Part shown: in pieces, positions 70-20,842 of the stretch | Numbering within the stretch: the stretch's first letter is position 1 | How the letters are laid out: each line of letters starts with the position of its first letter | Origin: an uncultured Porphyromonadaceae bacterium | GTDB taxonomy: Bacteria > Bacteroidota > Bacteroidia > Bacteroidales > Muribaculaceae | DNA length: 20,842 bases | NCBI GenBank assembly: GCA_900554265.1 | Contig: USGZ01000002.1 | Location: forward strand, 1 to 20,842 | Reading direction: 5' to 3' | Translations under genes and position numbers: made by a program | The notes under the pieces: generated by a model | The model's input: the letters and a program-made list of their open reading frames with translations, nothing else | Database searches by the model: none | What the model was told of the DNA's origin: nothing

Positions 70-98
70 ATTATAGCACGATTTTGGGGATTTGTCAA
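70..98 (-). promoter_or_regulatory. Consensus sigma-A promoter, leftward
   Basis: On the minus strand there is a perfect TTGACA (98-93), a 17-nt spacer and a perfect TATAAT (75-70). It faces the left edge and would drive the T-box-like leader at 1-62. It is divergent from the rimP promoter about 60 bp away. Confidence 0.85.
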
Positions 99-160: not shown

Positions 161-189
161 TTGATTTTCTGAAATAAACGTGGTATAAT
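161..189 (+). promoter_or_regulatory. Sigma-A promoter of rimP-nusA with extended -10
   Basis: TTGATT (161-166), a 17-nt spacer and TATAAT (184-189), preceded by TG at 181-182, which makes an extended -10. It lies about 110 bp upstream of rimP and would transcribe rimP and the nusA-like gene. Confidence 0.85.
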
Positions 190-301: not shown

Positions 302-808
302 ATGGCACTTGCAAAGGGGTTCAGCACTATCGAGGCTGCGGCTGAGGCCGCGGTAAGACCGATAGTCGAGGGCCACGGTTTCTCGCTGTGGGACGTCTGG
401 TTCGCGAAGGAGGGCGCAAAATGGTATCTGCGTATCTTCATCGACAAGCCGCACGGCGTTTCCATCGACGACTGCGAATCCATCGACGGTGAGATAAACT
501 CCATCATCGACGAGCAGTATTTCATCGACAAGATCGACTATCTGGAGATAGGTTCCGCGGGGCTTGAGCGTTCCGTGAGAAGACTTGCCCAGCTTGAGCA
601 GTCGATAGGAAAAAAGGTGAGGGTCAAGACCTACAAGCTGTGCGATGGCGCGCCTTCCAAGGACTTCAGGTGCGTTCTTTCGGGATACGACGGAGAAAAG
701 ATCACGCTGACCGGCGATTTCGGGGAGATCTCGCTTCCCGCCGCCGATATCTCGGCAATGAACTACGACGATTTTGACGATCACGAACTGATAGAAGACG
801 GCGAGTGA
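302..808 (+). CDS. rimP: Ribosome maturation factor RimP
   Basis: A 168-aa protein of the RimP (YhbC/DUF150) family, a cytoplasmic factor needed for 30S subunit maturation. The N-terminal alpha/beta domain holds the family signature: an opening helix with VRPIVEGHGFSLWDVWF, then WYLRIFIDKPHGVSIDDCE and, further on, YLEIGSAGLERSVR, which is the RimP version of the EVSSPGLDRPL motif. The C-terminal part (from about residue 95, KKVRVKTYK) is the SH3-like domain. The start at 302 is chosen over the ATG at 263 because a strong Shine-Dalgarno, GAAAGGAG at 286-293, lies 8 nt before it and family homology begins there. It is first in the operon with nusA 37 bp downstream, the standard Firmicutes order. 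Its codon and base use differ from everything right of about 910. Confidence 0.93.
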   Translation: MALAKGFSTIEAAAEAAVRPIVEGHGFSLWDVWFAKEGAKWYLRIFIDKPHGVSIDDCESIDGEINSIIDEQYFIDKIDYLEIGSAGLERSVRRLAQLEQSIGKKVRVKTYKLCDGAPSKDFRCVLSGYDGEKITLTGDFGEISLPAADISAMNYDDFDDHELIEDGE

Positions 809-845: not shown

Positions 846-908
846 ATGGCTAAGAAGAAAGTACAGCAGCCCCAGAACGACATCACTGAATTTTTTGACG
901 CGCTTGCC
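846..908 (+). CDS. nusA: NusA N-terminus, truncated at a contig junction
   Basis: The gene starts at ATG 846 with GGAGG at 829-833, directly after rimP as in rimP-nusA operons. The first ~20 residues include ITEFFDALA, which fits the opening helix of NusA (usually EFFEALxxLE), the transcription termination/antitermination factor. After roughly base 905 family likeness stops: the next sequence is the complement of an S41 peptidase gene on the other strand. The frame stays open to 2951 but everything beyond the junction is antisense to real genes, so the 701-aa conceptual product is an artefact. The identification rests on position and few residues; the truncation is clear. Confidence 0.65.
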
Positions 909-1208
909 GATTACGCTGCCTATGCCGGCATACCCTCCGGCGGAGAGCTGCAGAAGCTCGTCCTGCTCGTTGCTCGGATAGTACTCCGTGTAGGGGTCGG
1001 TGTAGTACAGCAGCGCCTGGATGGTATTGTCCATAATCTCGTCGACGGCTATAGTGTCGACATAGGAGGTTTCCAGCTCCTTGGCTATGCTGTTGAGGGT
1101 CTGAAGCTTGCGGGCCAGTCGGTCCTTATTGCCGGCGCTGTCGGCGAAAACCTGACCAAGCATCCCCGCCGCGAGCACCAGCGCCGCGAATATCGTAAAT
1201 TTCTTCAT
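908..1208 (-). CDS. S41 carboxyl-terminal peptidase, N-terminal fragment
   Basis: The start at 1208 gives a signal peptide (MKKFTIFAALVLAAG, predicted cut near VFADS), then a helical segment RKLQTLNSIAKELETSYVD and the family hallmark TDPYTEYYPSNEQDEL followed by GGYAGIGSVI. In CtpA/tricorn-like S41 proteases this motif comes just before the PDZ domain. Only about 100 of the usual 500+ residues are present: the PDZ and the Ser/Lys catalytic domain are lost because the sequence changes to the rimP-nusA DNA. The upstream ATG at 1313 is rejected because it lies beyond the promoter at 1235-1266. The intact protein would process or degrade envelope proteins in the periplasm. The family call is good; substrates are unknown. 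Confidence 0.8.
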
Positions 1209-1234: not shown

Positions 1235-1266
1235 CAAATATAGCACTTTTCCCCCACCCCCGCAAA
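1235..1266 (-). promoter_or_regulatory. Bacteroidales sigma-ABfr promoter of the S41 gene
   Basis: Minus strand: TTTG (1266-1263), 20-nt spacer, TATATTTG (1242-1235), matching the Bacteroidetes -33 TTTG and -7 TAnnTTTG consensus. It lies 27 bp upstream of the ATG. The spacer is rich in G and closely resembles that of the promoter at 15766-15797. Confidence 0.8.
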
Positions 1267-1276: not shown

Positions 1277-1304
1277 ATCGGCCTACGTTCGCACGCAGGC
1301 CGAT
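1277..1304 (-). terminator. Probable terminator of the starch operon
   Basis: ATCGGCCT (1277-1284) pairs with AGGCCGAT (1297-1304), extended inward with one mismatch to an 11-bp stem. Reading on the minus strand, the stem is followed by TTTTG, a short U-tract. It lies about 90 bp after the GH97 stop codon and just upstream of the S41 promoter, where an operon end is expected. Confidence 0.6.
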
Positions 1305-1340
1305 GAAGAACATTTGGTTTTTGCTAAAACAACCTTTGGG

Positions 1341-1380
1341 GAGTCTGTCCGGTATGTCCGGTTGAGCCGGAGGCGGACTC
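1341..1380 (-). other. Hairpin directly after the GH97 gene
   Basis: An outer stem GAGTC (1341-1345) / GACTC (1376-1380) encloses an inner stem TCCGG (1357-1361) / CCGGA (1367-1371). It starts about 17 bp after the stop codon. There is no clear U-tract, so it may be a 3'-end stability hairpin working with the terminator at 1277-1304. Confidence 0.4.
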
Positions 1381-1397
1381 GCTCCGAATATATCAGC

Positions 1398-3500
1398 TTA
1401 CTGTTTCTTCGTGATTCTGATTGCCGCGCCGCCGCCGGGAGCGAGGTGCGGGCGCAACACGGTCGAGGCGTCGACTTCGACGGTGCTGATGCGGTATGCC
1501 TGGGGATTCTCCTTCCAGTCGGCATCCGGAGCATCGGCATATACCGTGGCCACATAGGTTTCGCCGGCGGGCAGGAAGCCCAGGTCGACTGTCGCCGTAC
1601 GGGCGTTCTCGTCCGTGATTGCGCCTACATACCAGTCGTCGGAGTTCTTGTCGCGGCGGGCGACGGTGATATAGCGTCCCGGTTCGGCTTCGAGATAGCG
1701 GGAGTCGGACCAATCTACGGGCACGTCCTCGATGAAGCGGAAGGCATCCGGGAAGCGCTCGTAGTTCTCGGGCAGGTCGCAGGCCATCTGCATCGGCGAG
1801 GGCATGGTCAGGTAGAGGGCCAGCTGGCGCGCCAGCGTGGTGCCCGCCTGGGAGTCCTTGCCTTCGCCGTAGTAGCTCAGGCGCGTCTCGAACAGGCCCG
1901 GGGTATAGTCCATCGGGCCGCCCTTGAGGCGCGTGAAGGGCAGGATGCAGGTATGCGACGGCGGGTTGCCGCCCATCGACTCGAACTCGCCGCCGCGTGC
2001 CGATTCCTGGGCCAGCCAGTTGGGATAGGTGCGGGCCAGACCGGTGGGACGCGGAGCCTCGTGGCTGTCGACCATGATCTGATAGTCGGCGGCCCGCCTG
2101 GCCACGTCGAGCACATGGTCCACCATCCACTGCGAGGTATGATGCTCCGAACGGGGGATGATTGCGCCTACGTAGCCGGTCTTGACGGCGTCGTAGTTGT
2201 TGTCCTTCATGAACCTGAAGGCGCGGTCAAGCTGAAGGGAGTAGTCGGCGGCGTTGGCGGCGGTCTCGTGATGCATGATGAGCTTCACGCCTTTGGAGCG
2301 GGCGTAGTCGCGCAGCGAGTCGACGTCGAAGTCGGGATAGGCCTTGTCGAAGAGGAACTGGCGGTTCTTGCGGTAAGCGGCCCAGTCCTCCCAGCCTTCG
2401 TTCCAGCCCTCGACGAGCACGCCGTCGATACCGTGGGCCGCGGCGAAGTCTATGTAGCGCATCACGTTGGCCGTGTTGGCCGGATGGTGGCCGTTGGATT
2501 CGAGCGCCGAGTAGTCGGTGATGCCGGGCTTGGCCAGGAAGTCGTTCGAGTAGGCCCAGGTCTTGATTTTGCCGGTGAACATCTCCCACCATACGCCGAC
2601 GAACTTCATCGGCTTGATCCAGGAGGTGTCCTCGATCTTGCAGGGCTCGTTGAGATTGTAGACCAGCTGCGAGGCCAGGATATCGCGGGCGTCGTCGCTG
2701 ATGATGAGCGTGCGCCAGGGGGTGTCGAAGGGCAGGTGCAGATAGGCGCTGACGCCGAGACGGTCGGGCACCAGGTGCGCCTTCATCGCGTAAGCGGCGG
2801 TGTCGACGTCCAGCAGCATCGCCGGATAGCCTACAAGGGCGGCTTCATGGACGTTGACGTAGACCGAGTCGGCCGTCTTGAGCAGCAGCGGCGTCTGGAC
2901 CGTCGTGCCTCCGGTGCGCTGGGCCTCGCTGTGGCGGCGGTAGTTGCCTAAGGCCGAGGGAAGCTCCGTGAAGGTGGTCTCGGACCAGAGGTACTCGTCG
3001 GTATCGTAGTCGCCGGGGATGCAGAAGATGCGGTGGTTGTCCGTGTAGTTGTACTCGGTGAGCTCGTCGCGGAGGGTCAGGTAGTTGGGACCCTGCTGGG
3101 CAGGCAGCTCGTAGCGGAAGCCGATGCCGTCGTCGAACACGCGGAAGCGCAGCGTCATGGCCCGCGCCGGGTCGGTGGCCTTCAGGTGCAGGGCCAGCTC
3201 GCGGAAGTGGTCGCGCACGGTCGAGTACTCGCCCCATACGGGCTGCCAGCTGCGGTCGACGGTAGCGGTGTCGACGCCGGCGATGGTGAAGCCCGAGGTG
3301 AAGGAAGTCTCGTCGGCGCGCAGACCCAGGCGGCTGGGCGCGACGAGCGCACGGCCCTTGTAGTCTACGGAATAGCACGGCGCGCCATCGGCGTCCACGT
3401 CGGCCGTGAGGCGGATGGCTCCGTCGGGGGAAGTGATGACCGCGGCCGTCGCGGCAAGGGCGCCCGCGGTCATCATCATTGTTGCCAGAATTTTCTTCAT
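1398..3500 (-). CDS. susB: SusB-like GH97 alpha-glucosidase
   Basis: A 700-aa secreted enzyme with an N-terminal signal peptide (no lipobox), so probably periplasmic. Glycoside hydrolase family 97: N-terminal beta-super-sandwich (about residues 22-290), (beta/alpha)8 barrel (about 295-590) and C-terminal beta domain. It releases glucose from the non-reducing ends of maltooligosaccharides. Visible family motifs are VEGWNEGWEDW at 363-373, HHET at 410-413, DSHEAPRPTG at 478-487 and SARGGEFES at 500-508. E481 and E505 align with the base and acid glutamates of B. thetaiotaomicron SusB, and E412 with a calcium ligand, which supports the inverting, alpha-glucosidase type rather than the retaining, Asp-nucleophile alpha-galactosidase type. 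Last gene of the operon, 32 bp after the amylase. Length matches the family (about 700-740). Confidence 0.92.
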   Translation of the reverse strand: MKKILATMMMTAGALAATAAVITSPDGAIRLTADVDADGAPCYSVDYKGRALVAPSRLGLRADETSFTSGFTIAGVDTATVDRSWQPVWGEYSTVRDHFRELALHLKATDPARAMTLRFRVFDDGIGFRYELPAQQGPNYLTLRDELTEYNYTDNHRIFCIPGDYDTDEYLWSETTFTELPSALGNYRRHSEAQRTGGTTVQTPLLLKTADSVYVNVHEAALVGYPAMLLDVDTAAYAMKAHLVPDRLGVSAYLHLPFDTPWRTLIISDDARDILASQLVYNLNEPCKIEDTSWIKPMKFVGVWWEMFTGKIKTWAYSNDFLAKPGITDYSALESNGHHPANTANVMRYIDFAAAHGIDGVLVEGWNEGWEDWAAYRKNRQFLFDKAYPDFDVDSLRDYARSKGVKLIMHHETAANAADYSLQLDRAFRFMKDNNYDAVKTGYVGAIIPRSEHHTSQWMVDHVLDVARRAADYQIMVDSHEAPRPTGLARTYPNWLAQESARGGEFESMGGNPPSHTCILPFTRLKGGPMDYTPGLFETRLSYYGEGKDSQAGTTLARQLALYLTMPSPMQMACDLPENYERFPDAFRFIEDVPVDWSDSRYLEAEPGRYITVARRDKNSDDWYVGAITDENARTATVDLGFLPAGETYVATVYADAPDADWKENPQAYRISTVEVDASTVLRPHLAPGGGAAIRITKKQ

Positions 3501-3532
3501 TACTGTAAAGAAGGAAATTTATAGCTTAGGGT

Positions 3533-4858
3533 TCAGTTCATGTAAATCGCGTAGCCGTAGGCTCCGAGCTCGAGGGTGACGGGCACGGTCACTGTGGCGC
3601 CGGAGAGCAGGTCGGTCATCGAGGCTCCGGTGAGCATGATGGGCGTGCGGATGCTCTTGGTGTCGGCGGTAGGATTGACGGCCACCATCAGCGTGTGGCC
3701 GGGAATCGAGCGCGTGAAGCATACTACGGACGAAGTCGAGAGGTCGGCGAGCTGGCCGCGGCGCACCTCGGCGGAACTGCGGAAGGCGGCGTTGATGGCG
3801 GCGAACTTGTCGCTCAGGGCCTGCGAGAAGGTCAGCGGGTTGTAGTTGAAGAAGCTGAGCTTGCCGGAGAGGCCCTCGACGTCCATCGACGAGTAGATCA
3901 TCGGGGTGCCGTTGAGCATCGAGGCCAGCACATAGGCGGCGGGGATGCCTTCGGGAGCGCCGAACATGGTGGCCACGTTGTTCTCGGCGGCGGTGTCGTG
4001 GTTGAACACGTAGCGCAGAATCGAGTCGCCTTCAGGCACGACGGACAGTGCGCTCTGGGCCTCGCTGACGGCCTTCGAGGGCTTGTCGCCGTGGAAGACT
4101 TCGGAGATGGTCGAGCCGCTTTTCCAGTCGTAGATCATATCGAAACCGGCCTCGTAGTATTCGGCGTGCGAAGTCTCGGCGAGCATGATGAGCTCGGGAT
4201 TGAGGGCGCGCATGGCGGTGATGGCCTCGCTCCAGTAATCGATAGGCACGCCTTCGGCGTAGTCGCAGCGGTAGCCGTCGATGCCCAGTTCCTTGATCCA
4301 GAAAATCATGGCGTCCGTCATGGCAGCGCGTAGATTCTGGTTCGAGAAGTCCAGCTGGGCCACGTCCGTCCAGCCGTTGGCGTTGACGATATTGCCGTTG
4401 GCGTCATGTTCGTACCAGTCAGGGTGCTGGGCAATCCAGGCGCAGTCCCAGGCTGTGTGGTTGGCGATCCAGTCGAAAATCACCTTCATGCCCTTGGCGT
4501 GGGCGGCGTCGACAAGGGCCTTGGCGTCGGCCATGGTACCGTAGCGCGGATTGAGGGCCGTGAAGTTGCGCACGCAGTAGGGAGAGCCGAAGGCGTTGAG
4601 CTCGCCGGTCTCATAGACGGGCATGATCCAGAGGATGTCGGTGTTCATGCCGGCGATGCGGCCGAGCTGGGCGGCGATGCCGTCCAGGCACTCGTTGTCG
4701 CCGAAGAAACGGGGATTGGCCTGGTAGATTACGTTGGTGCTCACCTCCGGGCCTACCGTAGGCGGCGCGGGGTTCTCGGGCATGTCGATTTCGTAGGAAG
4801 TGCAGCCGGTGGCGGCAAATGCTGCCACCGCTGCGAGTATAGCTTTGATTGCTTTCAT
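3533..4858 (-). CDS. GH13 alpha-amylase lipoprotein
   Basis: A 441-aa alpha-amylase with a lipoprotein signal peptide (lipobox AATGC, Cys19), probably on the cell surface like SusG. All four GH13 conserved regions are visible: region I DWIANHT (129-135), region II GYRCDYAEGV with nucleophile D199, region III LAET with acid/base E228, and region IV FNHD with transition-state stabiliser D288. It should cut internal alpha-1,4 links of starch. At 441 aa it is much shorter than SusG (about 690), lacking room for the CBM58 insertion; starch binding may instead come from the neighbouring four-repeat lipoprotein. The residues after Cys19 (TSYEID) are only weakly acidic, a less clear surface-export signal than in its neighbours. 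The gene starts 7 bp after the upstream stop, so translation is probably coupled. Confidence 0.93.
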   Translation of the reverse strand: MKAIKAILAAVAAFAATGCTSYEIDMPENPAPPTVGPEVSTNVIYQANPRFFGDNECLDGIAAQLGRIAGMNTDILWIMPVYETGELNAFGSPYCVRNFTALNPRYGTMADAKALVDAAHAKGMKVIFDWIANHTAWDCAWIAQHPDWYEHDANGNIVNANGWTDVAQLDFSNQNLRAAMTDAMIFWIKELGIDGYRCDYAEGVPIDYWSEAITAMRALNPELIMLAETSHAEYYEAGFDMIYDWKSGSTISEVFHGDKPSKAVSEAQSALSVVPEGDSILRYVFNHDTAAENNVATMFGAPEGIPAAYVLASMLNGTPMIYSSMDVEGLSGKLSFFNYNPLTFSQALSDKFAAINAAFRSSAEVRRGQLADLSTSSVVCFTRSIPGHTLMVAVNPTADTKSIRTPIMLTGASMTDLLSGATVTVPVTLELGAYGYAIYMN

Positions 4859-4865
4859 TCAGGTC

Positions 4866-6590
4866 TTATTTGAGTTCGGCGCTTGTCGGGCCGGCGGAAA
4901 TAATATAGTTCTTGTCCAGGGTAATGCTCATGGCATCGTACTGGGTACCGTCGTTGTTGTTGAAGATGAGGTTCTCGGTCTCGCCGTGACCCTCGACGGT
5001 GATTACCTTGTAGGTAACGCCGTCGACAGTCTCGGTTGCATCGGGGCTGACGCCGGGCCAGCCCCCGAACACTTCCTTGTCGCCCCAGGCGTAGACGTAG
5101 AAGTTAGCCCAGCCGGTATTGTCCTCGATGTAGATCTTGAACTCGCTGACAGGCTCCTCGATGGCTGCGGCGCCGTCGGGGTTGGCGACGATATACCAGT
5201 CCTTGTCCAGGGTGATGGCCAGAGCGTCGTACTGGGTACCGTTGTTGTCGTGGAAGATAAGGTTCTCGGTCTCGCCGGCGCCGGATACGTTGAATACCAG
5301 GAAGCTCATGCCGCCGATTTCAACGGTTTCGGACGAAGTGGCGCCGGGCCAGCCGCCGAAGAGTTCCTTATCGCCCCAGGCGTAGACATAGAAGTCGCTC
5401 CAGCCGGTGAGGTTCTGGACATAAATCTTGTAGTCCTGAGGTTCGGGGTCGGGATCCGGGTCGGGTTCGGGAGTCGTGCCGGGGTCGTAGGTCTCGGGGT
5501 CGATTTCAGTGGCGCCGGAGGCGGTGAGCTCTACGTAGACGTCGCGGTCGAGGTTGAAGACAACCACGTCGTCGACCTGCTTGCCGTTGCCGTTGTTGAG
5601 AATCACGTGTTCCTCAAGACCGGCGTCGCAGTTGGCCGCGCCGAGGTCGAAGTAGGTGTACTCGACGCCCTTGATGGTCTGGGTTCCGGTAGGAGCCATG
5701 CCCGGCCATGCGCCGTTGAGGTCGTTGACCGCGCCCCACATATAAAGGTAGAGCTCGTCCCAGCCGCTCTTGTTGACCACGAACACGGCATAGCCGTCGT
5801 GCTTGACGTTCGACGAGGGGTCGTACTCGAGGACTGCGTCGGGTGTCAACTCGAGGTAGAAGTCCTTGTCCAGGGTAACGTTGTAGTCCGGGAGCTGCGA
5901 GCCGCCGTTGTTGTTGTTGAAAATCAGGTTCAGGTTGAGGCCCTCGTTGGCGGCGCCGGTATCGAAGTACTTGTAGGTCACGCCTTCGATTTCAACCTTG
6001 CCGGTGGGAGTCATGCCGGGCCAGGCGCCGAATGCCTCGGCGTCGCCCCAGGCGTACATGGCCAGGTCTTCGAAGCCGGAGTTGTCGACAACGTAGATCA
6101 CGTAGCCGTCGTGGACGATTTCACCCGGATCGACGGGTTTGTTGAAGTAGTCGGCCCAGCGGTAAAGAAGCACGTTCAGGCGCTGGCCCAGGGCCGGAGC
6201 CTCGGTGTGGAGAACGGGCTGGTTGTCCAGCGAGCGCTCTTCGCCCTGCTCCGAATTATAGAAGGTATAGCCGTCGGCAAGGGTCTTGCCGTCGACGAAG
6301 TCGTCGGGATTCAGATAGATACCCCACTTCACGTCCGTGTCGCTGGCCTTCTCGAGCTGCCACATCGGATTGCCCACGGCAGCTTCCTGGCCGCCATTAA
6401 ACTCGCCGACGATATAGATTTTGTCGGTCGGTATTGTGCCCTGCGGCACGATTACCTCCAGCAGCTGATAGCCGGGGCGCAGCTCGAAGCGCGGCAGCTC
6501 GCTGTCGAATATGATCTCGTCCTTGGAGCATCCCGCCAGCAGGGGCAGAAGCATCAGGAAAAGAAAACTGAATATATTGAATTTCTTCAT
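4866..6590 (-). CDS. SusE-position lipoprotein with four CBM26-like repeats
   Basis: A 574-aa lipoprotein (lipobox LLAGC, Cys21) followed by SKDE, which fits the Bacteroidetes K-(D/E)2 signal for surface display. Residues 30-150 form an N-terminal domain of the SusE/SusF outer-membrane type (weak likeness). Four repeats follow, at about 160-252, 264-358, 385-472 and 481-568. Each has the order YxIYVxNxxGWxxFYxYAWG, a GxWPG turn, then NLIFNNNxGxQ and a closing ITLDKDxYI strand. This is the pattern of starch-binding module CBM26, with the aromatic residues W/Y that stack on glucose. An acidic Pro/Asp linker (370-384) separates repeats 2 and 3. It probably holds starch at the surface for the GH13 and SusC/D proteins, replacing classical SusE/SusF. 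Located 12 bp after susD. The CBM assignment is from motif recognition only. Confidence 0.82.
   Translation of the reverse strand: MKKFNIFSFLFLMLLPLLAGCSKDEIIFDSELPRFELRPGYQLLEVIVPQGTIPTDKIYIVGEFNGGQEAAVGNPMWQLEKASDTDVKWGIYLNPDDFVDGKTLADGYTFYNSEQGEERSLDNQPVLHTEAPALGQRLNVLLYRWADYFNKPVDPGEIVHDGYVIYVVDNSGFEDLAMYAWGDAEAFGAWPGMTPTGKVEIEGVTYKYFDTGAANEGLNLNLIFNNNNGGSQLPDYNVTLDKDFYLELTPDAVLEYDPSSNVKHDGYAVFVVNKSGWDELYLYMWGAVNDLNGAWPGMAPTGTQTIKGVEYTYFDLGAANCDAGLEEHVILNNGNGKQVDDVVVFNLDRDVYVELTASGATEIDPETYDPGTTPEPDPDPDPEPQDYKIYVQNLTGWSDFYVYAWGDKELFGGWPGATSSETVEIGGMSFLVFNVSGAGETENLIFHDNNGTQYDALAITLDKDWYIVANPDGAAAIEEPVSEFKIYIEDNTGWANFYVYAWGDKEVFGGWPGVSPDATETVDGVTYKVITVEGHGETENLIFNNNDGTQYDAMSITLDKNYIISAGPTSAELK
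4887..6113 (-). repeat. Four tandem starch-binding modules; last two nearly duplicated in DNA
   Basis: The four modules occupy 6113-5835, 5801-5517, 5438-5175 and 5150-4887. The last two have a period of exactly 291 bp (97 codons) and retain long DNA matches, for example CTTGTCCAGG at 4911 and 5202, followed by shared tracts such as TCGTACTGGGTACC, which points to a recent duplication. The first two are more diverged. Confidence 0.8.
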
Positions 6591-6602
6591 GTCGGCTTGT
6601 TT

Positions 6603-8399
6603 TTAATAGTTAGGATTCTGTACCAGACCGGGGTTGACCATAAGGGCAACCTGCGGCAGGGGATACCATTCGTAGCGTCGGTCGCGCTTGGCGGGCATCT
6701 CGCGGTCGGTCTCAGAGGTGCGGCCGAAGAACCACCACTGGCCCTGGGTGAACTTGTCGAAGCGGCGCAGGTCGGTGCGGCGGCGACGGCCCTCGTTGAG
6801 GAACTCGAGACCCCATTCGCTGAGCATCCAGTCGCTGTCGAACTTGTCGAAGCCGGGACCGGGATTCTCGATGGTCGAGGCGTCCGATGCGGAATAGTAG
6901 CGCTGACGCACGTCGTTGACCAGCTGCTTGGCGCTGCCGGCGTCGCCGGCGCGGAGCTTGCACTCGGCCAGGGTGTAGTAGACTTCGGCGAGGCGGAACT
7001 CAACCTGGTCGGCGTCGCGCCAGTCGACACCTACGGAAGTGGGATATACCGGGTAGCGGAGCACGCGGAAACCGGAGTTGGTCTGGCCCCAGCGCGGGCT
7101 CATCACGGGTTCGAGGGCGCGGCCCAGGCCCAGGAAGGTACCTACCTGGTCGACGTAGATCAGAGGCTTGTCCTGAAGGTCGGCGTCGGCGAGGACGGGT
7201 TCGCCGGTCTCGTAGTTGATCTGGGCGCCCATGGCGAAGATGCCCTGCCAGTTGCCGGCGGCGTCGCACTTGAAGGGCTGCTTGCGGATATCGAGGTCGT
7301 TCATGCGGTCGAAGGGTGCGCCGAGCTTGTCGCCGTAGTCGAACAGGAAGCTCTTGGCGCCCTCGCTGCCGGCGTTGGGAACGAGCGTGCCCGTATTGTC
7401 CTTCGAAGGTACCAGGCAGGTGCAGTTCCAGCCGCCCTGGTCGCAGGAGAAGCCGAACATCTCGTCGTAGTTATAGGGAAGGAAGGGGGTGTTGCGGTTG
7501 TTGTTGGTCATGCGGCCAGCCTCCATGGCGAAGGCGAACACCACCTCGGGGCAGGTATTGTTGTCTACTCCGTAGATTTTGCGGTAGTCGGCGGCGAGGT
7601 CGTACTGGCCGTACTTGCCGTCGATGATTTCCTGGCAGAGGGTGGCGCACTCGGCGTAGCGGTCGGTGCCCGTCCATAGCTGGGAGTTCAGCAGGATACG
7701 CATCTTGAGCATGCGGTTCATGCCCTGGTTCATGCGGTTGCGGGTGGCGCTGGATCCGTCCTCGGCGGTGAGGTCGGCCCAGCAGCCGTCGAGTTCGTCG
7801 GCGATGAAGTTCCAGATTACCTCGCAGCCCTTGTTGAAGTCGGGGTCGGCGGAACCGGGGATGTCACCGCCGACGGAGATGTTCAGAGGCAGAGAGCCGC
7901 CCCAGAGCTCGAAGTTGTTGTAGTATGCCCAGGCACGCATGGTGCGCACTTCGGCGATGTAGGAGCGCAGGGAGGCGTCGGTCATGCCGATGGCTTCGGG
8001 ATTGAGGGCCTCCAGGTCGTTGATCAGGGTATTGCAGAGGCCGATGGTCTCCCAGGCGTGTTCCCAGGCCTGACGGATGATTACGGACTCGGAATTCCAG
8101 GTCTGCGTCGAGAGCACGAACTTGGCGGCTTCGTCGTAGCCCCAGGCGCCGCCGTTCCAGGTACGCCAGGCAATCTGGTCGGCGGGGAATTCGTTCAGGT
8201 ACCAGAAATACTCCAGGAAGCCGCTGGCGGCGCTGGCGTAGATGGAAGCCACGGCGCTCTGGACGCTCTGTTCGTCCTGATAGTAAGTCGAGGCGTCGAT
8301 GCGGTCGAAGGTCACTTCATCCAGGTCCGTGCACGACCATGCTCCGACGGCTATTGCGGTCGCACTCAGCAGACCGGCTATATGTTTGAATAGTTTCAT
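6603..8399 (-). CDS. susD: SusD-family starch-binding outer-membrane lipoprotein
   Basis: A 598-aa lipoprotein (signal peptide ending WSC, Cys23; mature start CTDLDEVTFD is acidic and fits surface export). The SusD fold is recognisable: the N-terminal helical stretch YYQDEQSVQSAVASIYASA, the TPR-like LINDLEALN region and IAEVRTMRAWAYYNNFELWG (RagB/SusD hallmark AEVRFLRAxYY). The C-terminal half holds EVYYTLAECKLRAGDAGSAKQLVNDVRQR and the final NPGLVQNPNY, typical of SusD ends. It caps the SusC channel and delivers maltooligosaccharides. It sits 19 bp after susC and 12 bp before the starch-binding lipoprotein, in the fixed susC-susD order. Starch specificity is inferred from the operon. Confidence 0.95.
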   Translation of the reverse strand: MKLFKHIAGLLSATAIAVGAWSCTDLDEVTFDRIDASTYYQDEQSVQSAVASIYASAASGFLEYFWYLNEFPADQIAWRTWNGGAWGYDEAAKFVLSTQTWNSESVIIRQAWEHAWETIGLCNTLINDLEALNPEAIGMTDASLRSYIAEVRTMRAWAYYNNFELWGGSLPLNISVGGDIPGSADPDFNKGCEVIWNFIADELDGCWADLTAEDGSSATRNRMNQGMNRMLKMRILLNSQLWTGTDRYAECATLCQEIIDGKYGQYDLAADYRKIYGVDNNTCPEVVFAFAMEAGRMTNNNRNTPFLPYNYDEMFGFSCDQGGWNCTCLVPSKDNTGTLVPNAGSEGAKSFLFDYGDKLGAPFDRMNDLDIRKQPFKCDAAGNWQGIFAMGAQINYETGEPVLADADLQDKPLIYVDQVGTFLGLGRALEPVMSPRWGQTNSGFRVLRYPVYPTSVGVDWRDADQVEFRLAEVYYTLAECKLRAGDAGSAKQLVNDVRQRYYSASDASTIENPGPGFDKFDSDWMLSEWGLEFLNEGRRRRTDLRRFDKFTQGQWWFFGRTSETDREMPAKRDRRYEWYPLPQVALMVNPGLVQNPNY

Positions 8400-8418
8400 T
8401 GTTTCGAGATGATGCGGT

Positions 8419-11385
8419 TTAACGGAAACGGATGGTGGCGCCCAGGGTCAGCTGCATGGCTGTCGGGTAGGCGGAGGATACGTCGACGCCGGGGGTGATT
8501 CCCGTCGAGGGTACGGCGGAGGGGTCGGTGCCGGTATAGCCCGTGATGGTGAAGATGTTCTTGGCCGAGAGGTAGACGCGGACGGAATCCAGCAAGCGGC
8601 GGTTCTTCAGGGGCACGGTGTAGCCGAGCGTAACGTTCTCGAGCTTGAAGTAGTCGCCGCGCTCGAGGAAGTACGACGAGATTACGCCGCCGCCGGACCA
8701 TACGTCGCGGTCCTTGAGGTAGGTGCTGCGCAGTACGTTGTCGCTGCCGCTGCCCTTGAGGCCCATGCCGTAGCGGCGCATGTTGAAGATTTTGTGGCCG
8801 AAGGCGCCGTTGAACATAAGGCTCAGGTCGAAGTTCTTCCACTTGACGGTGTTGTTCCAGGTCAGGAAGTGCTTGGGAGCGCCGTCGCCGATGTAGCGTT
8901 TGTCCTTGGGGTCGGCGGTCGAGGCGTTGACCTTCTCGCCGTCGGCGGTGTAGATGAGCATATTGTGATCTTCGTCTACTCCGGCATACTCGTAGCCGTA
9001 GAACTGGCCGATGCGGCCGCCTTCCTCGACGCGGAAGAAGTACTCGCTGGTGCCTACGCCCGGCTTGCGGTAGAGGTCGAGGTAAGATGCCTGATAGATG
9101 GAGTTCGAGAGCTTGGTGAGCTTGGTGGTGCCGTAGGAGTAGTTGATGCCGGTGGTCCAGGTCACGGGCTGGTTGACGACTGCGTCGGCCGTGAGGGCGA
9201 TTTCGATACCGGTGTTCTTGGTGGTACCCACGTTGACGAGTATGTCGGGATATACGTACGGGGGCTGCGGGGCCGTGTAGTTGTACAGCAGGTCCTGAGA
9301 GCGGCGGTCGAAGTACTCGACAGAACCGTAGATTCGGTTGAAGAACATGAAGTCCACGCCGTAGTTGGCGCTGGAAAGCTTCTCCCAGCCGAGGTTGGGG
9401 TTGGCGTTGTTGGAGGGGCGGTAGCCGGTGATCCACTGGCCGTCGATCAGATAGGTGCCGTTTGTGGAATATGTGGCAAGGGATTTGTACGCATCGAAGT
9501 CGCTGCGGCCGGTAACACCCCAGGAGATACGGGGCTTGAGGCTCTGGACGGTCTGCACATATTCCGAAAGGAAGGGAGCCTTGGCCATTTCCCAGGCGAT
9601 GGAGGCCGAGGGGAAGGAACCCCACTTCTTGTCGGCGCCGAACTTGGTCGATCCTTCATGACGGATGGAAGCGGAAGCTATCACCATACCGCGCCAGGAG
9701 TAATTGGCGCGTCCGAAGAAGCCGACGAGAGTCGACTGGCTCTTGCCGCCGTACATCTGGGCCTTGCCGTCGGCCAGCCAGGAGCCCGAGCCGATGCCGT
9801 TCCAGAGGGGTTTGTCGAAGGTGAAGTCGTTGTTCTGCATGAACATCTGCTCCCAGTCGCTGCGCTCGAAGGAGTAGCCGCCTACGAGCTTGAAGTCATG
9901 GTCGCCGCTGAGGAAGCCGTAGTTGCCGATCCATTCCAGGCGGTTGGTCCACCATTTCTGGTACTGCTGGGAAGCGCGGCCCTTGTAGCCGCCCCAATAG
10001 GATTCGCCGGAGGTCGTCGGAGTGTAATAGTCGCTCTTGAGGTCGTTGTAGCTGTAGGAGTACGACAGAGTGGTGCTCACGCTGTGCTTGTCGTTGCTCC
10101 AGATGCTGTACTTGACGTCGGCGGTGCCGAGCAGGTAGGTGCGGTTGCCCTGCGAGGTGTTGACCTTAAGCTGCTGCACGGGGTTCTTGATGTCCGTAGG
10201 GGAGGTGGGCTGGAAGTAGGAGCCGTCGGCGTTGAACACGGGGATGGTCGGGTTCATGCCCAGGGCGGTGTCGAACATGCCGCTGTCGCCCCAGTCTTCC
10301 TTGACCTTGCGGGCGTTGATTGTGGCGGTGAAACGCAGGTGGCTGTCGAGGGTATTTGCGGAAACGGCCGCACGGCCGCCGAATTCCTCGCGGCCGCTTA
10401 CGATGTCCAGACCGTTGGCCTTCTTCCAGTTGACGGAGGCTGTGTAGTAGCCGCCGTTGGAGAGGCTGCCGTCGATGGAGAGGTACTGGTTGGTGTCGTA
10501 GGCAACGTCGCGGGTAATCAGGTCGTACCAGTCGGTGCTGGCGCCGTAGTCGTTGCCGCGGCGGGCAAGGCGCCATTCGTAGGGCGAGAGTACCTCGGGC
10601 TTGTCCTTGGCGAAGGCCAGGGCGCCGTAGGAATCATAGGTGATTACGGGCAGCCCCGGTTCGCCGGTGCCCTTCTTGGTGGTGATGAGGATAACGCCGT
10701 TGGCGCCGCGCGTACCGTAGATGGCGGCGGAGGCGGCATCCTTCAGTACGGACATGGACTCGATGTCCTGCGGGGCCAGGGTGCGGATATCGCCGCCGGC
10801 CACACCGTCGATCACGATCAGAGGACCGTTGCCGGCGCTGAGGGAGGTGGCGCCGCGTACCTGAAGCGATGCGCTGCCGTTGGGGTCGGCGGAAGCGGTG
10901 CTGGACACGTTGAGGCCGGCAACCTTGCCGGTGAGCATTTCCATCGGGTTGTTCATGGCGCCCTTCTGGAAATCGTCGCGGTTCACCTGGACGATGGAGC
11001 TCGAAAGTTCCTTGCGGCTCAGGGAGCCGTAGCCTACGACAACTACCTCGTCGAGGATTTCGCTGTCCTCCTGCATGGTGACGTCGATTTTGGTCTGTCC
11101 GTTTACGGCGACCTCCACAGCCTGGAAGCCGACATAGCTGAATACGAGAGTACCGTCGGAAGGAACGGCGGAAATGGTGTAGTTGCCGTCAAAGTCGGTT
11201 ACCGCGCCGTGTAACTGGTCGCCTTTTACCGAAACGCTGACGCCTATGAGGACTTCGCCGGTCCGGTCAGCGACAGTTCCGGAAACATTGACAGTCTGCG
11301 CCGCCAGCTGCGGGACAGACAGAAGAGCCAGCAGCATCAGCAAGGTATGCTTCAAGGCTCGTAGATTCCATGGTTTTCTGTTCAT
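8419..11385 (-). CDS. susC: SusC-family TonB-dependent outer-membrane transporter
   Basis: A 988-aa transporter. Signal peptide to about residue 29, then a carboxypeptidase-D-like regulatory domain (31-106: VNVSGTVADRTGEVLIGVSV and DFDGNYTISAV), a TonB-box/SusC signature EILDEVVVVGYG (109-120) and the plug domain with VSSTASADPNGSASLQVRG and IESMSVLKDAASAAIYGTRG. The rest is a 22-strand beta-barrel ending in a C-terminal Arg-Phe-Arg tail (TLGATIRFR). It imports oligosaccharides captured by SusD using energy from TonB-ExbBD. First gene of the operon, with a promoter at 11441-11472. Length is normal for the family. Substrate (starch or maltooligosaccharide) is inferred from the downstream GH13 and GH97 enzymes. 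Confidence 0.96.
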   Translation of the reverse strand: MNRKPWNLRALKHTLLMLLALLSVPQLAAQTVNVSGTVADRTGEVLIGVSVSVKGDQLHGAVTDFDGNYTISAVPSDGTLVFSYVGFQAVEVAVNGQTKIDVTMQEDSEILDEVVVVGYGSLSRKELSSSIVQVNRDDFQKGAMNNPMEMLTGKVAGLNVSSTASADPNGSASLQVRGATSLSAGNGPLIVIDGVAGGDIRTLAPQDIESMSVLKDAASAAIYGTRGANGVILITTKKGTGEPGLPVITYDSYGALAFAKDKPEVLSPYEWRLARRGNDYGASTDWYDLITRDVAYDTNQYLSIDGSLSNGGYYTASVNWKKANGLDIVSGREEFGGRAAVSANTLDSHLRFTATINARKVKEDWGDSGMFDTALGMNPTIPVFNADGSYFQPTSPTDIKNPVQQLKVNTSQGNRTYLLGTADVKYSIWSNDKHSVSTTLSYSYSYNDLKSDYYTPTTSGESYWGGYKGRASQQYQKWWTNRLEWIGNYGFLSGDHDFKLVGGYSFERSDWEQMFMQNNDFTFDKPLWNGIGSGSWLADGKAQMYGGKSQSTLVGFFGRANYSWRGMVIASASIRHEGSTKFGADKKWGSFPSASIAWEMAKAPFLSEYVQTVQSLKPRISWGVTGRSDFDAYKSLATYSTNGTYLIDGQWITGYRPSNNANPNLGWEKLSSANYGVDFMFFNRIYGSVEYFDRRSQDLLYNYTAPQPPYVYPDILVNVGTTKNTGIEIALTADAVVNQPVTWTTGINYSYGTTKLTKLSNSIYQASYLDLYRKPGVGTSEYFFRVEEGGRIGQFYGYEYAGVDEDHNMLIYTADGEKVNASTADPKDKRYIGDGAPKHFLTWNNTVKWKNFDLSLMFNGAFGHKIFNMRRYGMGLKGSGSDNVLRSTYLKDRDVWSGGGVISSYFLERGDYFKLENVTLGYTVPLKNRRLLDSVRVYLSAKNIFTITGYTGTDPSAVPSTGITPGVDVSSAYPTAMQLTLGATIRFR

Positions 11386-11440
11386 TATAAGTATGATTTG
11401 GTTGTGATGATTTTCATGGCGCGCTTTTGCTCTGCGGACG

Positions 11441-11472
11441 CAAAATTCGGCACTTCCCGCACACGCGTCAAG
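11441..11472 (-). promoter_or_regulatory. Probable promoter of the starch operon
   Basis: Minus strand: CTTG (11472-11469), 20-nt spacer, GAATTTTG (11448-11441), one mismatch in each box compared with TTTG / TAnnTTTG. It gives a leader of about 50 nt before susC. The imperfect boxes suit a regulated promoter that needs the activator encoded upstream. Confidence 0.5.
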
Positions 11473-11526
11473 ACAATCAAATAAAAATCAAAACTTATCG
11501 AACAGCTATTTGGTTAAATTTCAGCT

Positions 11527-11540
11527 AATTTTATAAAATT
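11527..11540. promoter_or_regulatory. AT-rich 14-bp palindrome upstream of the susC promoter
   Basis: AATTTTATAAAATT is a perfect palindrome about 55 bp upstream of the -33 box of susC and 27 bp after the regulator stop codon. It could be an activator site or part of the regulator's transcript end. Two similar strings, TTTGGTTAA near 11509 and TTTTGGTAA near 11540, lie around it as an imperfect direct repeat. The AT richness of the spacer means chance is possible. Confidence 0.3.
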
Positions 11541-11566
11541 TTGGTAAGGAAAAATCAAGGCGTTTT

Positions 11567-13219
11567 TCAAATCAAATTTTTCACGTCCTCCTCGAATCTG
11601 TCCGGGTTCAGAGCCCTTTTTCTCATTTTTGACCGGTAGGTGTAGACCGTGGAGAGCGAGCAGCGCAGGAACTCGGCGATTTTGGCGCTGTCCTCCATAC
11701 CGAGCCGGACCAGAGCGAAGAGGCGCAGCTCCGTGTTCAGCAGTTCGCCCGGCTTGAGCTCAACCTGCTCGCCCGGCTTGAGAAGGGCGTTGAATTTCTC
11801 GACGAACGAGGGGTAGATGTTGAGGATGGCCTCGTCGAACTTGACGTAGAATTTCTTCAGAAGCTGGTCCGATACTTCCGTCGACTCGAGTTTCTTGAGC
11901 AGGTCGGCCTTGTTGCCCCCTTTGGCCGTCAGGACCCGCAGCGACTGCTGGTAGCGCTGAAGCGTAGATATGGCCGAAGAACAGTATTCCATGAACAGAC
12001 CAGCGTACTGTTCCTTGGTCTTGTTGTAGTCGCGCAGCTCGAAATTGCGGCGTTCCAGCTCGCTGTTGGCGTCGCGCAGCTGCGCGGACATCACGCTGAG
12101 TTCGGTATTGACGGTGTTGACCTCGGCGTTGGCGCGCCGCAGTTTCCTTATCTGCGAGAGGATGAACAGCAGCGTGATTACCAGTACGAAGGATAGCACC
12201 GTGCTGGTCCATGTCGATATCTGCAGGCGCCTGTTGTTGCGGTGCTGCATCTGGGAATACGCTTCGTCGATTACGGGTAGCATCTTGCTGGACTGCGCGT
12301 TGCGCATCAGCGCCGAGTAGAAGTTGGCATCGGCTATGCTTTTCATCAGGTAGCGGTTGGCGCGCTCAATGTCGCCGTCCTCGAACATCAGCGTAGCGAC
12401 GGCGCGGAACGACATATTCTCCTTAACCGCGCCCTTCACGTCCGAAATGGCGCTGAGTATCAGGTAGCGCTTGCCTTCGTCGCGGTAGCCGTTTATCTGA
12501 TAGATATACGCCAGGGTCGACGCCAGGATGGAATACTCGCGCGTGCCCGAAGTATACTCGCCCATGAATTCCGTCATCTCGCCGATCACGTCCTCCAGCT
12601 CGCCGGCGCGCGCCCGCTCGCTCAGCACGTGGCAGCGGTAGTTGAAGCTCCCTGGTTCGGCCGTCCGGCGCAGGGAATCGGCGTAGGATGTCCGCAGACG
12701 CTCGTAGTTGAGCGCCGTCTCATGCTCGTCCGTATATTCGCTCAGATACTGGTAAAGCGCGCAGTAGGCCGAATAGTAATCCTCGAGCAGCTCCGGGTCC
12801 AGCGAGTCGCGGGGTATCTCGCGCATCAGCGAGAGCGCGTCGGAGAACAGCCCGGCGTGTGCCATGACATCGGCGCGGCGGATGCGAAGGCGGTTGTACT
12901 CCGCCGGATTGCGCCGTACCGAAGGGCGGCGCAGGTTCAGGTTGATGTAGTACAGCGCGGAGTCGGCGTTGTAGGCGTTGAATTCCTCCGCCAGGGCATC
13001 GGTGATTTCCACACGCTGGGCCTCGTCGCGCGCCAGGGCATAGTCGCGCTGCAGCCGGGCGATGCGGTTCTCCTTGGCGATCTCGTAGTCGCGGCTGCGC
13101 GCGATCTCGTTGTCGAGTTCGGTGCATAGTTCCCCGAAGGTGCCGTCGGTACCGGTACCGTCGCGGCCGCCGCAACCTGCCAGGGCAAGCGCGACAAGAA
13201 GAAGTATCCAGGTTTTCAT
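11567..13219 (-). CDS. Membrane-spanning regulator with DUF6377-type C-terminus (SusR-like role)
   Basis: A 550-aa protein: signal peptide with lipobox ALAGC (Cys16), then a long helical, TPR-like periplasmic region (about 30-330), a TM helix (about 334-356, TSTVLSFVLVITLLFILSQI), a coiled coil (357-400, NTELSVMSAQLRDANSELERR) and a conserved C-terminal region. The last contains YPSFVEKFNALLKPGE, GELLNTELRLFALVRLG and the LuxR-like helix-turn-helix SAKIAEFLRCSLSTVYTYRS (511-530). This architecture is known in Bacteroidetes (DUF6377 family) as a one-component regulator of adjacent polysaccharide genes. It lies directly upstream of susC in the same orientation, so it probably activates the starch operon when maltooligosaccharides bind outside. 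Ligand and DNA site are inferred. No promoter of its own is obvious; it follows the nuclease gene by 83 bp. Confidence 0.82.
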   Translation of the reverse strand: MKTWILLLVALALAGCGGRDGTGTDGTFGELCTELDNEIARSRDYEIAKENRIARLQRDYALARDEAQRVEITDALAEEFNAYNADSALYYINLNLRRPSVRRNPAEYNRLRIRRADVMAHAGLFSDALSLMREIPRDSLDPELLEDYYSAYCALYQYLSEYTDEHETALNYERLRTSYADSLRRTAEPGSFNYRCHVLSERARAGELEDVIGEMTEFMGEYTSGTREYSILASTLAYIYQINGYRDEGKRYLILSAISDVKGAVKENMSFRAVATLMFEDGDIERANRYLMKSIADANFYSALMRNAQSSKMLPVIDEAYSQMQHRNNRRLQISTWTSTVLSFVLVITLLFILSQIRKLRRANAEVNTVNTELSVMSAQLRDANSELERRNFELRDYNKTKEQYAGLFMEYCSSAISTLQRYQQSLRVLTAKGGNKADLLKKLESTEVSDQLLKKFYVKFDEAILNIYPSFVEKFNALLKPGEQVELKPGELLNTELRLFALVRLGMEDSAKIAEFLRCSLSTVYTYRSKMRKRALNPDRFEEDVKNLI

Positions 13220-13243
13220 GGCAGAAGTATGGCTTGTAATGGA

Positions 13244-13284
13244 GCGAACGCAGGGAGCCCTGCTGCAGGCGTCCTTGCGTTCGC
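13244..13284. other. Long hairpin between nuclease and regulator genes
   Basis: GCGAACGCA (13244-13252) pairs perfectly with TGCGTTCGC (13276-13284), and a G-T wobble plus further pairs (GGA with TCC) extend it inward. It fills the gap between the nuclease stop (13303) and the regulator start (13219). On neither strand is it followed by a clear U-tract, so it is more likely an mRNA stability or processing hairpin than a strong terminator. Confidence 0.5.
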
Positions 13285-13302
13285 GGTATTTTCAGTTAAT
13301 CC

Positions 13303-15702
13303 TCAGCGGATTACCACACGTCGTGCAAAGTCGCCGCAGGCCACGATGTAGAGGCCCGGTGCGAGGCTGCCGAAGCTGTGCTCGCCCTCGGTGAGGACAC
13401 CGTAATGGATGGTGGTGCCGTCGAGCGCGTAGACGCCGAAGGTCAGGCCGTCGGTCTCGACCGTGACGATAAGCTCGCCGCCGCGGCAGAAGGCGTCCCA
13501 GCTGTGGCGCTCGGCGCTCGGATCGCTCACGCCGGAGCTGTAGCGCGTGATGCTCACGTCGTCGAGGTTCAGGCGGCTGCCCGAGGTCTGCTGCAGGCGC
13601 ACGCGCGCCTTACCCGCACAGCCTACGAATACGGAGTACTCTGCATAGGTGGTCCCGCTAACGGTAACGCTGCCGGCCGTCCTGTAGCTCTGACCGCCGT
13701 CGGTGCTGTACTGCACGTCGATTACCGGGTTGCTCTCGCTGCCCCAGTACTTTGCGAAGAAGGAAACGGTGCCTATTCCTCCTGTGCGGTCCTCGGCCAT
13801 CTCGATATAGGAATCGGGATTCTTGCCGAAGCGGACGCTCTGCTCGCCGCTGTGGGCGGGGTCGGACGACCATATGCCGACGTTCGAGAAATTCCATTTG
13901 GCAGCCGTGCCCTGATAGGCGTCCAGGGGATTGTACGAGCCGAAACCGGAGGCATCCTGCTCGAAGTCCTCGCAGAAGTCGGGAACGATGCTGGCGATAC
14001 CTCTGATTTCAATGGCCTCGGCGGTATAGCTGCCGGAAGCGGCCGTCAGCTGCCCGGTGTAGGTGCCGCCGCTCGCGGCGTACATGCGCAGGTAGACGCG
14101 GTCCTGGTCCTCGGGAACGACCACGCTGCCGCTCCAGTCGGAATTGTTGGCGCTTACCTGGAAGGGCGCGGTGACCGTTACGGTGATGTCGCCCTCGAGG
14201 TTCTCGGATTCCATCAGCAGCTCGGCGGCCTCGGAGGGTTCGCCGGGAGCGGCGGTGAAGTAAAGGTCGCCGTCGAAGAGGAATTCAATCGAGGGGATGG
14301 GGTCGGCCGTGGTCACGGTCACGGGTCTGCTGGTCTGCGAGGCGGACGATACGGTGTAGGTATAGGTGGTCGAGGGCTCGAGGCCTGTCACGTTGTAACT
14401 CTGCACGCCGCTGGCTACCAGGCGGGGATAGCCTTCGATGCTGGCGCCGCCGGTGCGGACGTCGAGGGTGTAGTTGCCGCCGGTGGCGTCGCCGATGTAG
14501 ACCCAGGTGGCCGTAAAGGACTCGTCGGTGATGTAGATGGCCGGACCGGCGGGGAGGCCGTCGACGCAGTTGCCGCTAAGGGATACGGTGCGCGTCAGGT
14601 CGCCGCAGCTCAGGGTCATGGTGCCGGTCGAGGCGCCTACGGCCGTCGGACGGTAGGTCAGCGTCAGCCGCGTGCCGGTGGAGCCGTTGGTGGCGGCCGC
14701 AGTCAGCGAGGTGACGGCAGAGCTGAAGCCCGCCCCGGAGAAGCTGATGAAGGTCGGTTCGGTGGCGTTGGTGGTGCGCACGTATATGTTGCGCTCGATG
14801 GCCACGCCGGCGGCCGTGGTGCCGAAATCGACGCTGCTGCCCTCGGCGGGCTGCATGATTTCAGGCTCGGCGGGGCCGTTCGGGGTCCAGGCTACCGCCG
14901 ACTTGTTGCCCCAGATGTGCTCGGCGAGCTCGGGATAGTCGATGAAGGGGTTGCGGTTGCGCTGGCGCCCGTAGACAACGTCGTTGCGGTTGATTTCCTT
15001 CTCGCTGACTGGATCCTGGCGGTGCCATTTCAGCAGCAGGTTGATGGCCCAGGTTTTGAAGGCCGGGAAGTTGTTGCCGGCCAGCATGTCGGAATGCCAG
15101 GAGCCGATGCGGGTGTAGTATGCCGCGGCCATGTAGAAATAGCTGCGGGCGAAGTCGCCCTTATACTCGTCGTCAGGTTCGAACACCGTGCCCGAATAGC
15201 CGGGGAAGGTGCTCTTGCCCAGCTTGCCCAGCGGACGGACGCCGTTGTGCGAGGCCAGGTAGGTGCCGTTGGCGCACTCGCCGTAGGGATAGTTGCTGCG
15301 CTGGCCGTTGACCTTGCCGTCGGTGGGATAGATATGGAAGGCGTCGCTGGCCATCGGAGAGCCGTTGTCGAACCAGCTCTTTGGGAACGAGTGCTCGCGG
15401 TTATAGCAGTCGCCGACGTAGGAATAGTTGCCGCAGGTGGAGCCGAAGACCCACTCCTTGGTCGAATACATGTCCCAGATTTTGCCGTTGGGGCGTACGT
15501 CGGAAGTGCGGTAAAGCGACAGCAGGCCGTCGTAGCCAACGTTGGTATGGGTGCCTATCTTGGAATTGAGAGCGGCGAGAAGCTCGCGGCCGCACTTGTT
15601 CTCCGCGGCATCGTAGTAGCCCGCAGGAGCGCCGGCGGCGGCGCTCATACAGCCGAGCAACACTCCGGTAGCCAGGCTGACGATATTCCTGAGAATTCTC
15701 AT
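13303..15702 (-). CDS. Secreted EndA/NucM-family endonuclease with type IX sorting tail
   Basis: A 799-aa secreted protein. Signal peptide (about 1-25), then an endonuclease I domain (about 28-270) with NREHSFPKSWF (101-111; H104 is the expected general base), DAFHIYPTDGKVNGQRSN (120-137; N132 a metal ligand) and RNRNPFIDYPEL (248-259). These are the family hallmarks of the beta-beta-alpha-metal nucleases EndA, NucM and Vvn, which cut DNA or RNA non-specifically. Next come an Ig-like domain (280-380), a fibronectin III-like domain (385-468), another beta domain (470-570) and a jelly-roll-like domain (575-722). The last ~75 residues (ELIVTVETDGLTFGVYAL ... LAPGLYIVACGDFARRVVIR, in parts) form a type A C-terminal sorting domain for type IX secretion. 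The start at 15702 is chosen because the ATG at 15891 lies upstream of the promoter and lacks a signal peptide. It may scavenge nucleotides or degrade extracellular DNA. Confidence 0.9.
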   Translation of the reverse strand: MRILRNIVSLATGVLLGCMSAAAGAPAGYYDAAENKCGRELLAALNSKIGTHTNVGYDGLLSLYRTSDVRPNGKIWDMYSTKEWVFGSTCGNYSYVGDCYNREHSFPKSWFDNGSPMASDAFHIYPTDGKVNGQRSNYPYGECANGTYLASHNGVRPLGKLGKSTFPGYSGTVFEPDDEYKGDFARSYFYMAAAYYTRIGSWHSDMLAGNNFPAFKTWAINLLLKWHRQDPVSEKEINRNDVVYGRQRNRNPFIDYPELAEHIWGNKSAVAWTPNGPAEPEIMQPAEGSSVDFGTTAAGVAIERNIYVRTTNATEPTFISFSGAGFSSAVTSLTAAATNGSTGTRLTLTYRPTAVGASTGTMTLSCGDLTRTVSLSGNCVDGLPAGPAIYITDESFTATWVYIGDATGGNYTLDVRTGGASIEGYPRLVASGVQSYNVTGLEPSTTYTYTVSSASQTSRPVTVTTADPIPSIEFLFDGDLYFTAAPGEPSEAAELLMESENLEGDITVTVTAPFQVSANNSDWSGSVVVPEDQDRVYLRMYAASGGTYTGQLTAASGSYTAEAIEIRGIASIVPDFCEDFEQDASGFGSYNPLDAYQGTAAKWNFSNVGIWSSDPAHSGEQSVRFGKNPDSYIEMAEDRTGGIGTVSFFAKYWGSESNPVIDVQYSTDGGQSYRTAGSVTVSGTTYAEYSVFVGCAGKARVRLQQTSGSRLNLDDVSITRYSSGVSDPSAERHSWDAFCRGGELIVTVETDGLTFGVYALDGTTIHYGVLTEGEHSFGSLAPGLYIVACGDFARRVVIR

Positions 15703-15765
15703 GGTAGAAGTTATGTCCTGTATTTTTCTTGAATTGTGTACGACTGGTTCCGACAAAGCGGACTG

Positions 15766-15797
15766 CAAATTTAGCCATTTTCCCCCAATCCCGCAAA
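15766..15797 (-). promoter_or_regulatory. Promoter of the nuclease gene
   Basis: Minus strand: TTTG (15797-15794), 20-nt spacer, TAAATTTG (15773-15766), matching the Bacteroidetes consensus. The leader is about 60 nt. The spacer is nearly identical to that of the S41 promoter at 1235-1266. Confidence 0.8.
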
Positions 15798-15899
15798 CCC
15801 AAACCGCGCTCTCCCCTATTGCGCCCCCTCGAAAGCCATCTGCCCTCAATAAAATTCGCTCCATATCGCGATTTGCGAGAATTTTTCTCACAAATAAGC

Positions 15900-15929
15900 T
15901 TTGAATGAATATTTATTTTGCTATATTTG
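15900..15929 (+). promoter_or_regulatory. Promoter of the ATPase-RloB pair
   Basis: TTTG (15900-15903), 18-nt spacer, TATATTTG (15922-15929). It ends 21 bp before the ATG at 15951, giving a very short leader. It is divergent from the nuclease promoter about 100 bp away. Confidence 0.75.
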
Positions 15930-15950
15930 CAGCAGATTTGCGAAATCACT

Positions 15951-17150: not shown

Positions 17151-17152
17151 AT

Positions 17153-17854: not shown

Positions 17855-18016
17855 TTCGCACCAGCTAGGAACCGACAGGCACGGGACGCTTGGTTAAACT
17901 ATTATAAAATGAGGGGACGGGGGTTGGGAAATCGGTGTAGGCAGGGTACCTTTGCGGTGTCGGTTTGCGTCTTCCGCATCGGCCTCTTACATCATCACTC
18001 TGACTTCTTACGAGCC
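17855..18016. other. Spacer between RloB-like gene and nitroreductase
   Basis: This 162-bp stretch has no convincing gene. It holds a short AT-rich patch (ACTATTATAAAAT near 17899-17911) and the nitroreductase promoter. No obvious hairpin terminator follows the defence pair. Confidence 0.4.
17923..17954 (+). promoter_or_regulatory. Promoter of the nitroreductase gene
   Basis: GTTG (17923-17926), 20-nt spacer, TACCTTTG (17947-17954), fitting TTTG / TAnnTTTG with one mismatch in the -33 box. It lies about 60 bp upstream of the ATG at 18017 and rules out the ATG at 17909 as start. Confidence 0.65.
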
Positions 18017-19197: not shown

Positions 19198-19231
19198 GAT
19201 CAAGCCGGCAGTGGAGGTAGGGGGCAAAGGT

Positions 19232-19246
19232 GGGCGCCTTGCGCCC
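19232..19246. other. Tight G+C-rich hairpin after the lipoprotein gene
   Basis: GGGCGC and GCGCCC pair around a CTT triloop, about 35 bp after the lipoprotein stop. On the plus strand it is followed by A residues, not T, so it is not a normal intrinsic terminator for the lipoprotein gene. It lies inside the MITE-like element. Confidence 0.5.
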
Positions 19247-19253
19247 AAAAACC

Positions 19254-19297
19254 GGGATTAATCGAGATTAATCGGGAATAATCCTGATTAATCGGGA
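19254..19297. repeat. Four tandem 10-bp repeats with GATTAATC cores
   Basis: Units GGGATTAATC, GAGATTAATC, GGGAATAATC and CTGATTAATC run back to back from 19254 to 19293, followed by a partial GGGA. Three of the four carry the perfect palindrome GATTAATC. The 10-bp period places each copy on nearly the same face of the helix. Confidence 0.75.
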
Positions 19298-20830: not shown

Positions 20831-20842
20831 GCCGCCGCCGAA

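Follow-up and report, generated by a model that had tools for sequence, protein, structure and literature searches.

The window examined here, the whole 20,842-nucleotide stretch of contig USGZ01000002.1, is very probably an interspecies chimeric contig, that is, an artefact of assembly or of library preparation, as judged from its genes and their matches. Approximately positions 1–909 form a left segment that carries rimP and the beginning of nusA and is clostridial (Oscillospiraceae-type), while the segment from 899 onward is of Bacteroidales (Muribaculaceae) type and starts inside the gene for an S41 peptidase. A fusion of two organisms' DNA in the middle of genes is the interpretation that agrees best with the observations: each interrupted gene has intact relatives, promoter type and composition change, and a short stretch at the join is compatible with either gene. 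The preliminary description had proposed that this contig joins two organisms, and the proposal is borne out by the lineage of the matches on each side and by the intact relatives of the cut genes. A separate database search of each side returned relatives of RimP and NusA for the left and of S41, glycoside hydrolase family 97 (GH97) and Sus proteins for the right, and these belong to different lineages, the lineage names resting on the labels of the protein matches.

The left segment contains a complete rimP gene (302–808, plus strand), which the preliminary description had missed while correctly recognising the start of nusA behind it. The gene is preceded by a ribosome site, AAAGGAG, read directly from the sequence at 287–293, and its product carries the Pfam RimP_N domain (E 1.5e-17) and is 99% identical to protein P0001 over 100% of its length. 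Among the best 120 of 319 RimP relatives examined, four carry an organism label, and three of these are Oscillospiraceae (P0017, P0038 and P0057, at 77, 78 and 72% identity), the remaining one being from Lachnospiraceae (P0116, 66%). In the genus that best matches the right-hand segment the left-part RimP finds distant matches only, in 31 of 49 genomes, where the best by E-value (9.3e-7) has 33% identity and shorter stretches reach 44%. A scan of the viral_contigs set gave two weak loci for RimP, 42 residues long at 43–45% identity, and none for NusA.

The nusA gene begins at 846 on the plus strand, behind a GGAGGA ribosome site that can be read directly at 829–834, and runs for 21 codons and one further base to 909, where it is cut at the junction. 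Its codons in 846–908 agree with one NusA protein of 403 residues (P0122) in 21/21 residues and with a second of the same length (P0123) in 20/21, and both proteins depart from the window at codon 909. These two, out of six candidates, were the only proteins found to have NusA residues 1–40, and P0122 carries the Pfam domains NusA_N and KH_5.

On the other side of the junction, the minus strand holds the 5' part of the S41 peptidase gene (899–1208), identified by its identity to P0124 and cut after residue 103 of 556. From 1208 down to 900 the fragment corresponds to residues 1–103 of P0124 with 100% identity over 99% of the 104-residue query, and P0124 itself is intact at 556 residues with Peptidase_S41 and PDZ domains. 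For each of the two interrupted genes an intact version thus exists (P0122 and P0123 for NusA, P0124 for S41). The next codon on the minus strand, 899–897, encodes Val in the window and Gly in P0124, and leftward past the break none of the 18 following residues matches. The closest S41 relative with an organism label is a Muribaculaceae protein (P0127, 66%). The search for S41 relatives went from order to family to genus, with evenly drawn samples of 393 and 397 genomes from the larger groups and then with 49 genomes. In this last set, which is the genus of G719, the gene is present at E ≤ 1e-150 in 43 of 49 genomes with a best identity of 66%; since the nearest S41 protein lies this far away, the right-hand species of the window is not among the genomes searched. 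The match extends across the position of the break in each of the 20 aligned S41 loci (L085–L104, 3.5–4.7 kb each), and none of these loci contains a hit to RimP or NusA at E ≤ 1e-5. A scan of the genome_contigs set with P0124 reached at most 42% identity among the best 80 of 186 relatives, and the viral_contigs scan with S41 gave no locus.

The preliminary description had placed the loss of likeness to both genes, nusA on the plus strand and S41 on the minus strand, at a single place within 895–915, and codon-by-codon comparison confirms it. NusA can be followed without a break to 908, and an Ala as the next residue would share the following base, which moves the possible limit to 909; S41 can be followed in the same way down to 900, where a Gly as its next residue would likewise share one base, giving a limit of 899. 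The junction (no strand assigned) can accordingly be drawn as the stretch 899–909, compatible with nusA and S41 alike by this comparison and by a background test. The further claim, that the joining sequence can be read as either gene, holds for these positions, with a weaker NusA likeness extending to 932. Past 909 the reading is exactly that of S41, yet NusA residues 19–29 still match at 8/11 positions (ALA, YAA and GI). Against a background of the six frames of window positions 1301–20842 together with 19 regions from the genus, at least 8/11 was reached at none of 623,494 positions and 7 at four of them; a stricter test confined to NusA residues 22–29, those after 909, gave 5/8, a score equalled at 26 of 623,854 positions. 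These data suggest that the two parents are more alike at the join than chance gives, a patch of the kind expected if likeness caused the join.

The promoters also differ between the two sides. TTGACA/TATAAT is a common clostridial promoter type, and TTTG/TAnnTTTG is the Bacteroides type. A sigma-70 type promoter with all 12/12 consensus bases (TTGACA-17-TATAAT, 70–98, minus strand) points leftward out of the window and is the only exact site of its kind in it (0.00 expected), and a promoter-like site with 10/12 consensus bases (TTGATT-17-TATAAT, 161–189, plus strand) lies upstream of rimP. On the right, a Bacteroidales-type promoter, TTTG-N20-TATATTTG, stands upstream of the S41 gene (1235–1266, minus strand). 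The window holds three TTTG-N16-22-TAnnTTTG sites where 0.05 are expected, all three of them right of 900, on a side that makes up 96% of the window. Sigma-70-like sites number four in positions 1–1500 against 1.0 expected, and two weaker ones (9/12) occur right of the junction, at 1027–1060, which counts against a clean split. The division of promoter styles by side that had been described earlier therefore stands for the exact TTGACA/TATAAT site on the left and the TTTG/TAnnTTTG sites on the right, but not for the weaker sigma-70-like sites, which occur on the right as well. Composition changes as well. When the 898 bases of 1–898 were compared with 191 overlapping right-hand segments of equal length, their distance was 0.354 for 3-mers (maximum among the right-hand segments 0.334) and 0.512 for 4-mers (maximum 0.490), a small margin from a short sample. 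The tetranucleotide comparison across the join, with 1–898 outside all 191 segments by this small margin, agrees with the split first proposed.

The genes of the right segment point to a Muribaculaceae-type organism, a name that rests on the labels of the protein matches. The GH97 gene (1398–3500, minus strand, Pfam GH97 domains) is followed on the same strand by other starch-locus genes, for an alpha-amylase family protein (GH13), a starch-binding protein (CBM26), SusD and SusC (3533–11385). In the genus of G719, GH97 was found in 34/49 genomes at E ≤ 1e-100 with a best identity of 81%, and it is 75–82% identical in all nine regions fetched from that genus. Five of these nine (L123, L126, L127, L130 and L131) preserve the block GH97, GH13, SusE, SusD, SusC in the window's order, with 73–86% identity for SusC, 72–82% for SusD and 54–64% for GH13, SusE being lower and patchy. 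SusC and SusD were seen in six of the nine regions, five of them at the identities just given; the sixth, L128, has a distant SusC (39%) and SusD (32%) and a regulator-like match (32%). Region L125 stops just beyond GH97 with a partial GH13 (47%), and L124 and L129 have no further starch-locus gene within the stretch covered. A ManA-like protein at the far right end matches 44 of the 49 genus genomes at E ≤ 1e-60 with a best identity of 54%, weak evidence as the protein is widespread.

Three other features of the right segment and its relatives were observed. In L123 a rimP–nusA pair (483–2341 of that region) lies about 7.7 kb from GH97 and shows 30–38% identity to the left-part proteins; the resemblance of this closeness to the arrangement in the window looks like coincidence. 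In the window itself, an AAA_21 ATPase gene with an RloB-like gene directly after it occupies 15948–17854, a stretch of lower G+C, and its best PADLOC models, AbiLi (8.4e-95) and AbiLii (1.4e-29), make it a putative pair of the phage abortive-infection type. At lower coordinates, 13303–15891, a gene encodes a long and possibly secreted protein in which an Endonuclease I domain is accompanied by a sub-cut-off Pfam match to fibronectin type III and a long C-terminal part.

One feature of the right segment differs from its relatives. The S41 and GH97 genes, neighbours in the window across 1209–1397, were together in none of nine GH97 regions and none of ten S41 regions. In the former, the stretch covered beyond GH97 ranged from 0.7 to about 10 kb. 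The adjacency is most simply explained by an ordinary rearrangement. A second break between the two genes is less likely, as the S41 promoter (1266–1235) agrees with a promoter at 15797–15766 in 27/32 bases, and on the strength of this agreement we tentatively take the S41-side stretch to be from the same organism as the rest. The likeness of these two minus-strand TTTG-N20-TAnnTTTG promoters (1235–1266 and 15766–15797) includes the spacer and perhaps represents a form typical of the species. Between the two genes lies a terminator-like hairpin (1277–1304, minus strand) of 12 pairs, seven of them G-C, which is weak as a signal, two such sites being observed against 1.9 expected in shuffles.

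A join of this kind could in principle be natural. Gut bacteria do exchange DNA, and a real recombination or transfer could have brought the clostridial rimP–nusA segment and the S41 gene together in the same genome; we regard this as most improbable, because the join interrupts two genes, leaving 21 codons of nusA and 103 of the 556 S41 residues, and because an intact S41 protein with an identical N-terminal part exists in P0124. The junction 33-mer had no exact match in genome_contigs and viral_contigs, a weak argument against transfer, as the two parent species may be missing from both sets. The window contains no tRNA, and the 15 translations from it that were scanned against Pfam, including stretches of both frames at the join, gave no mobility domain. 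A transferred segment would have recipient sequence on either flank, and the left part here extends beyond the first base of the window. In its most specific form, illegitimate recombination between phyla, directed by a match of 11–22 bases that arose by chance, would have moved the clostridial rimP and the beginning of nusA into a chromosome of Muribaculaceae type, or vice versa, and we give this just as slight a prospect. That one organism simply has an unusual gene order, without any junction, is the least credible reading, practically negligible: nothing was found in its favour, RimP is 99% identical to a protein with clostridial labelled relatives and only distantly like its matches in the right-hand genus, and nusA and the S41 gene break off at the same point. 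The join almost certainly arose from sequencing or assembly error rather than in nature.

How an artefact of this kind was made is harder to say, and the identity of NusA residue 22 in the left-hand parent bears directly on it. The join was probably brought about by likeness between the two parent DNAs, whether this acted in the assembly graph or during library preparation. With Asp at that residue the exact shared bases could extend over 899–920, a stretch of 22 bases, which would just exceed the starting k of an assembler, common assemblers starting at k = 21, and would point to a mis-join in the graph. With Ala, as in P0122 and P0123, the exact overlap spans at most 899–909; these 11 bases are below the usual k-mer sizes and too short for k = 21, which makes a library chimera or a read-overlap error more likely. 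A physical chimera, formed in library preparation or amplification by a template switch at a short match or by fragment ligation and then extended at both ends, is accordingly a serious possibility, if somewhat short of an even chance. It is favoured by the short shared stretch that Ala-22 implies, but the likeness that continues beyond 909 speaks for a longer one; moreover, a chance chimeric read is normally single and rarely survives assembly unless coverage is low.

Whichever its origin, the chimeric contig shares features with interspecies chimeric contigs as outlined in PMC8171044 and PMC7881036, the second of which describes chimeric contigs as such: two species are involved, gene content, composition and promoters switch at one point, and the join sits at a likeness between both, seen here at the amino-acid level. 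According to PMC8171044, sequence common to two species can give rise to chimeric nodes in de Bruijn graphs. The nodes treated there are stretches common to evolutionarily similar species, whereas the parents here appear to come from different phyla and resemble each other by chance over a short patch that is read in opposite frames.

The contig is otherwise ordinary, and it is useful chiefly as a contamination flag, its two parts to be handled as separate organisms. Any inference that relies on finding the two parts on one contig, be it on the host of the starch locus, on cross-phylum transfer or on binning, would be false. The case illustrates that DNA of unrelated species can become joined where the two resemble each other by chance over a very short stretch.
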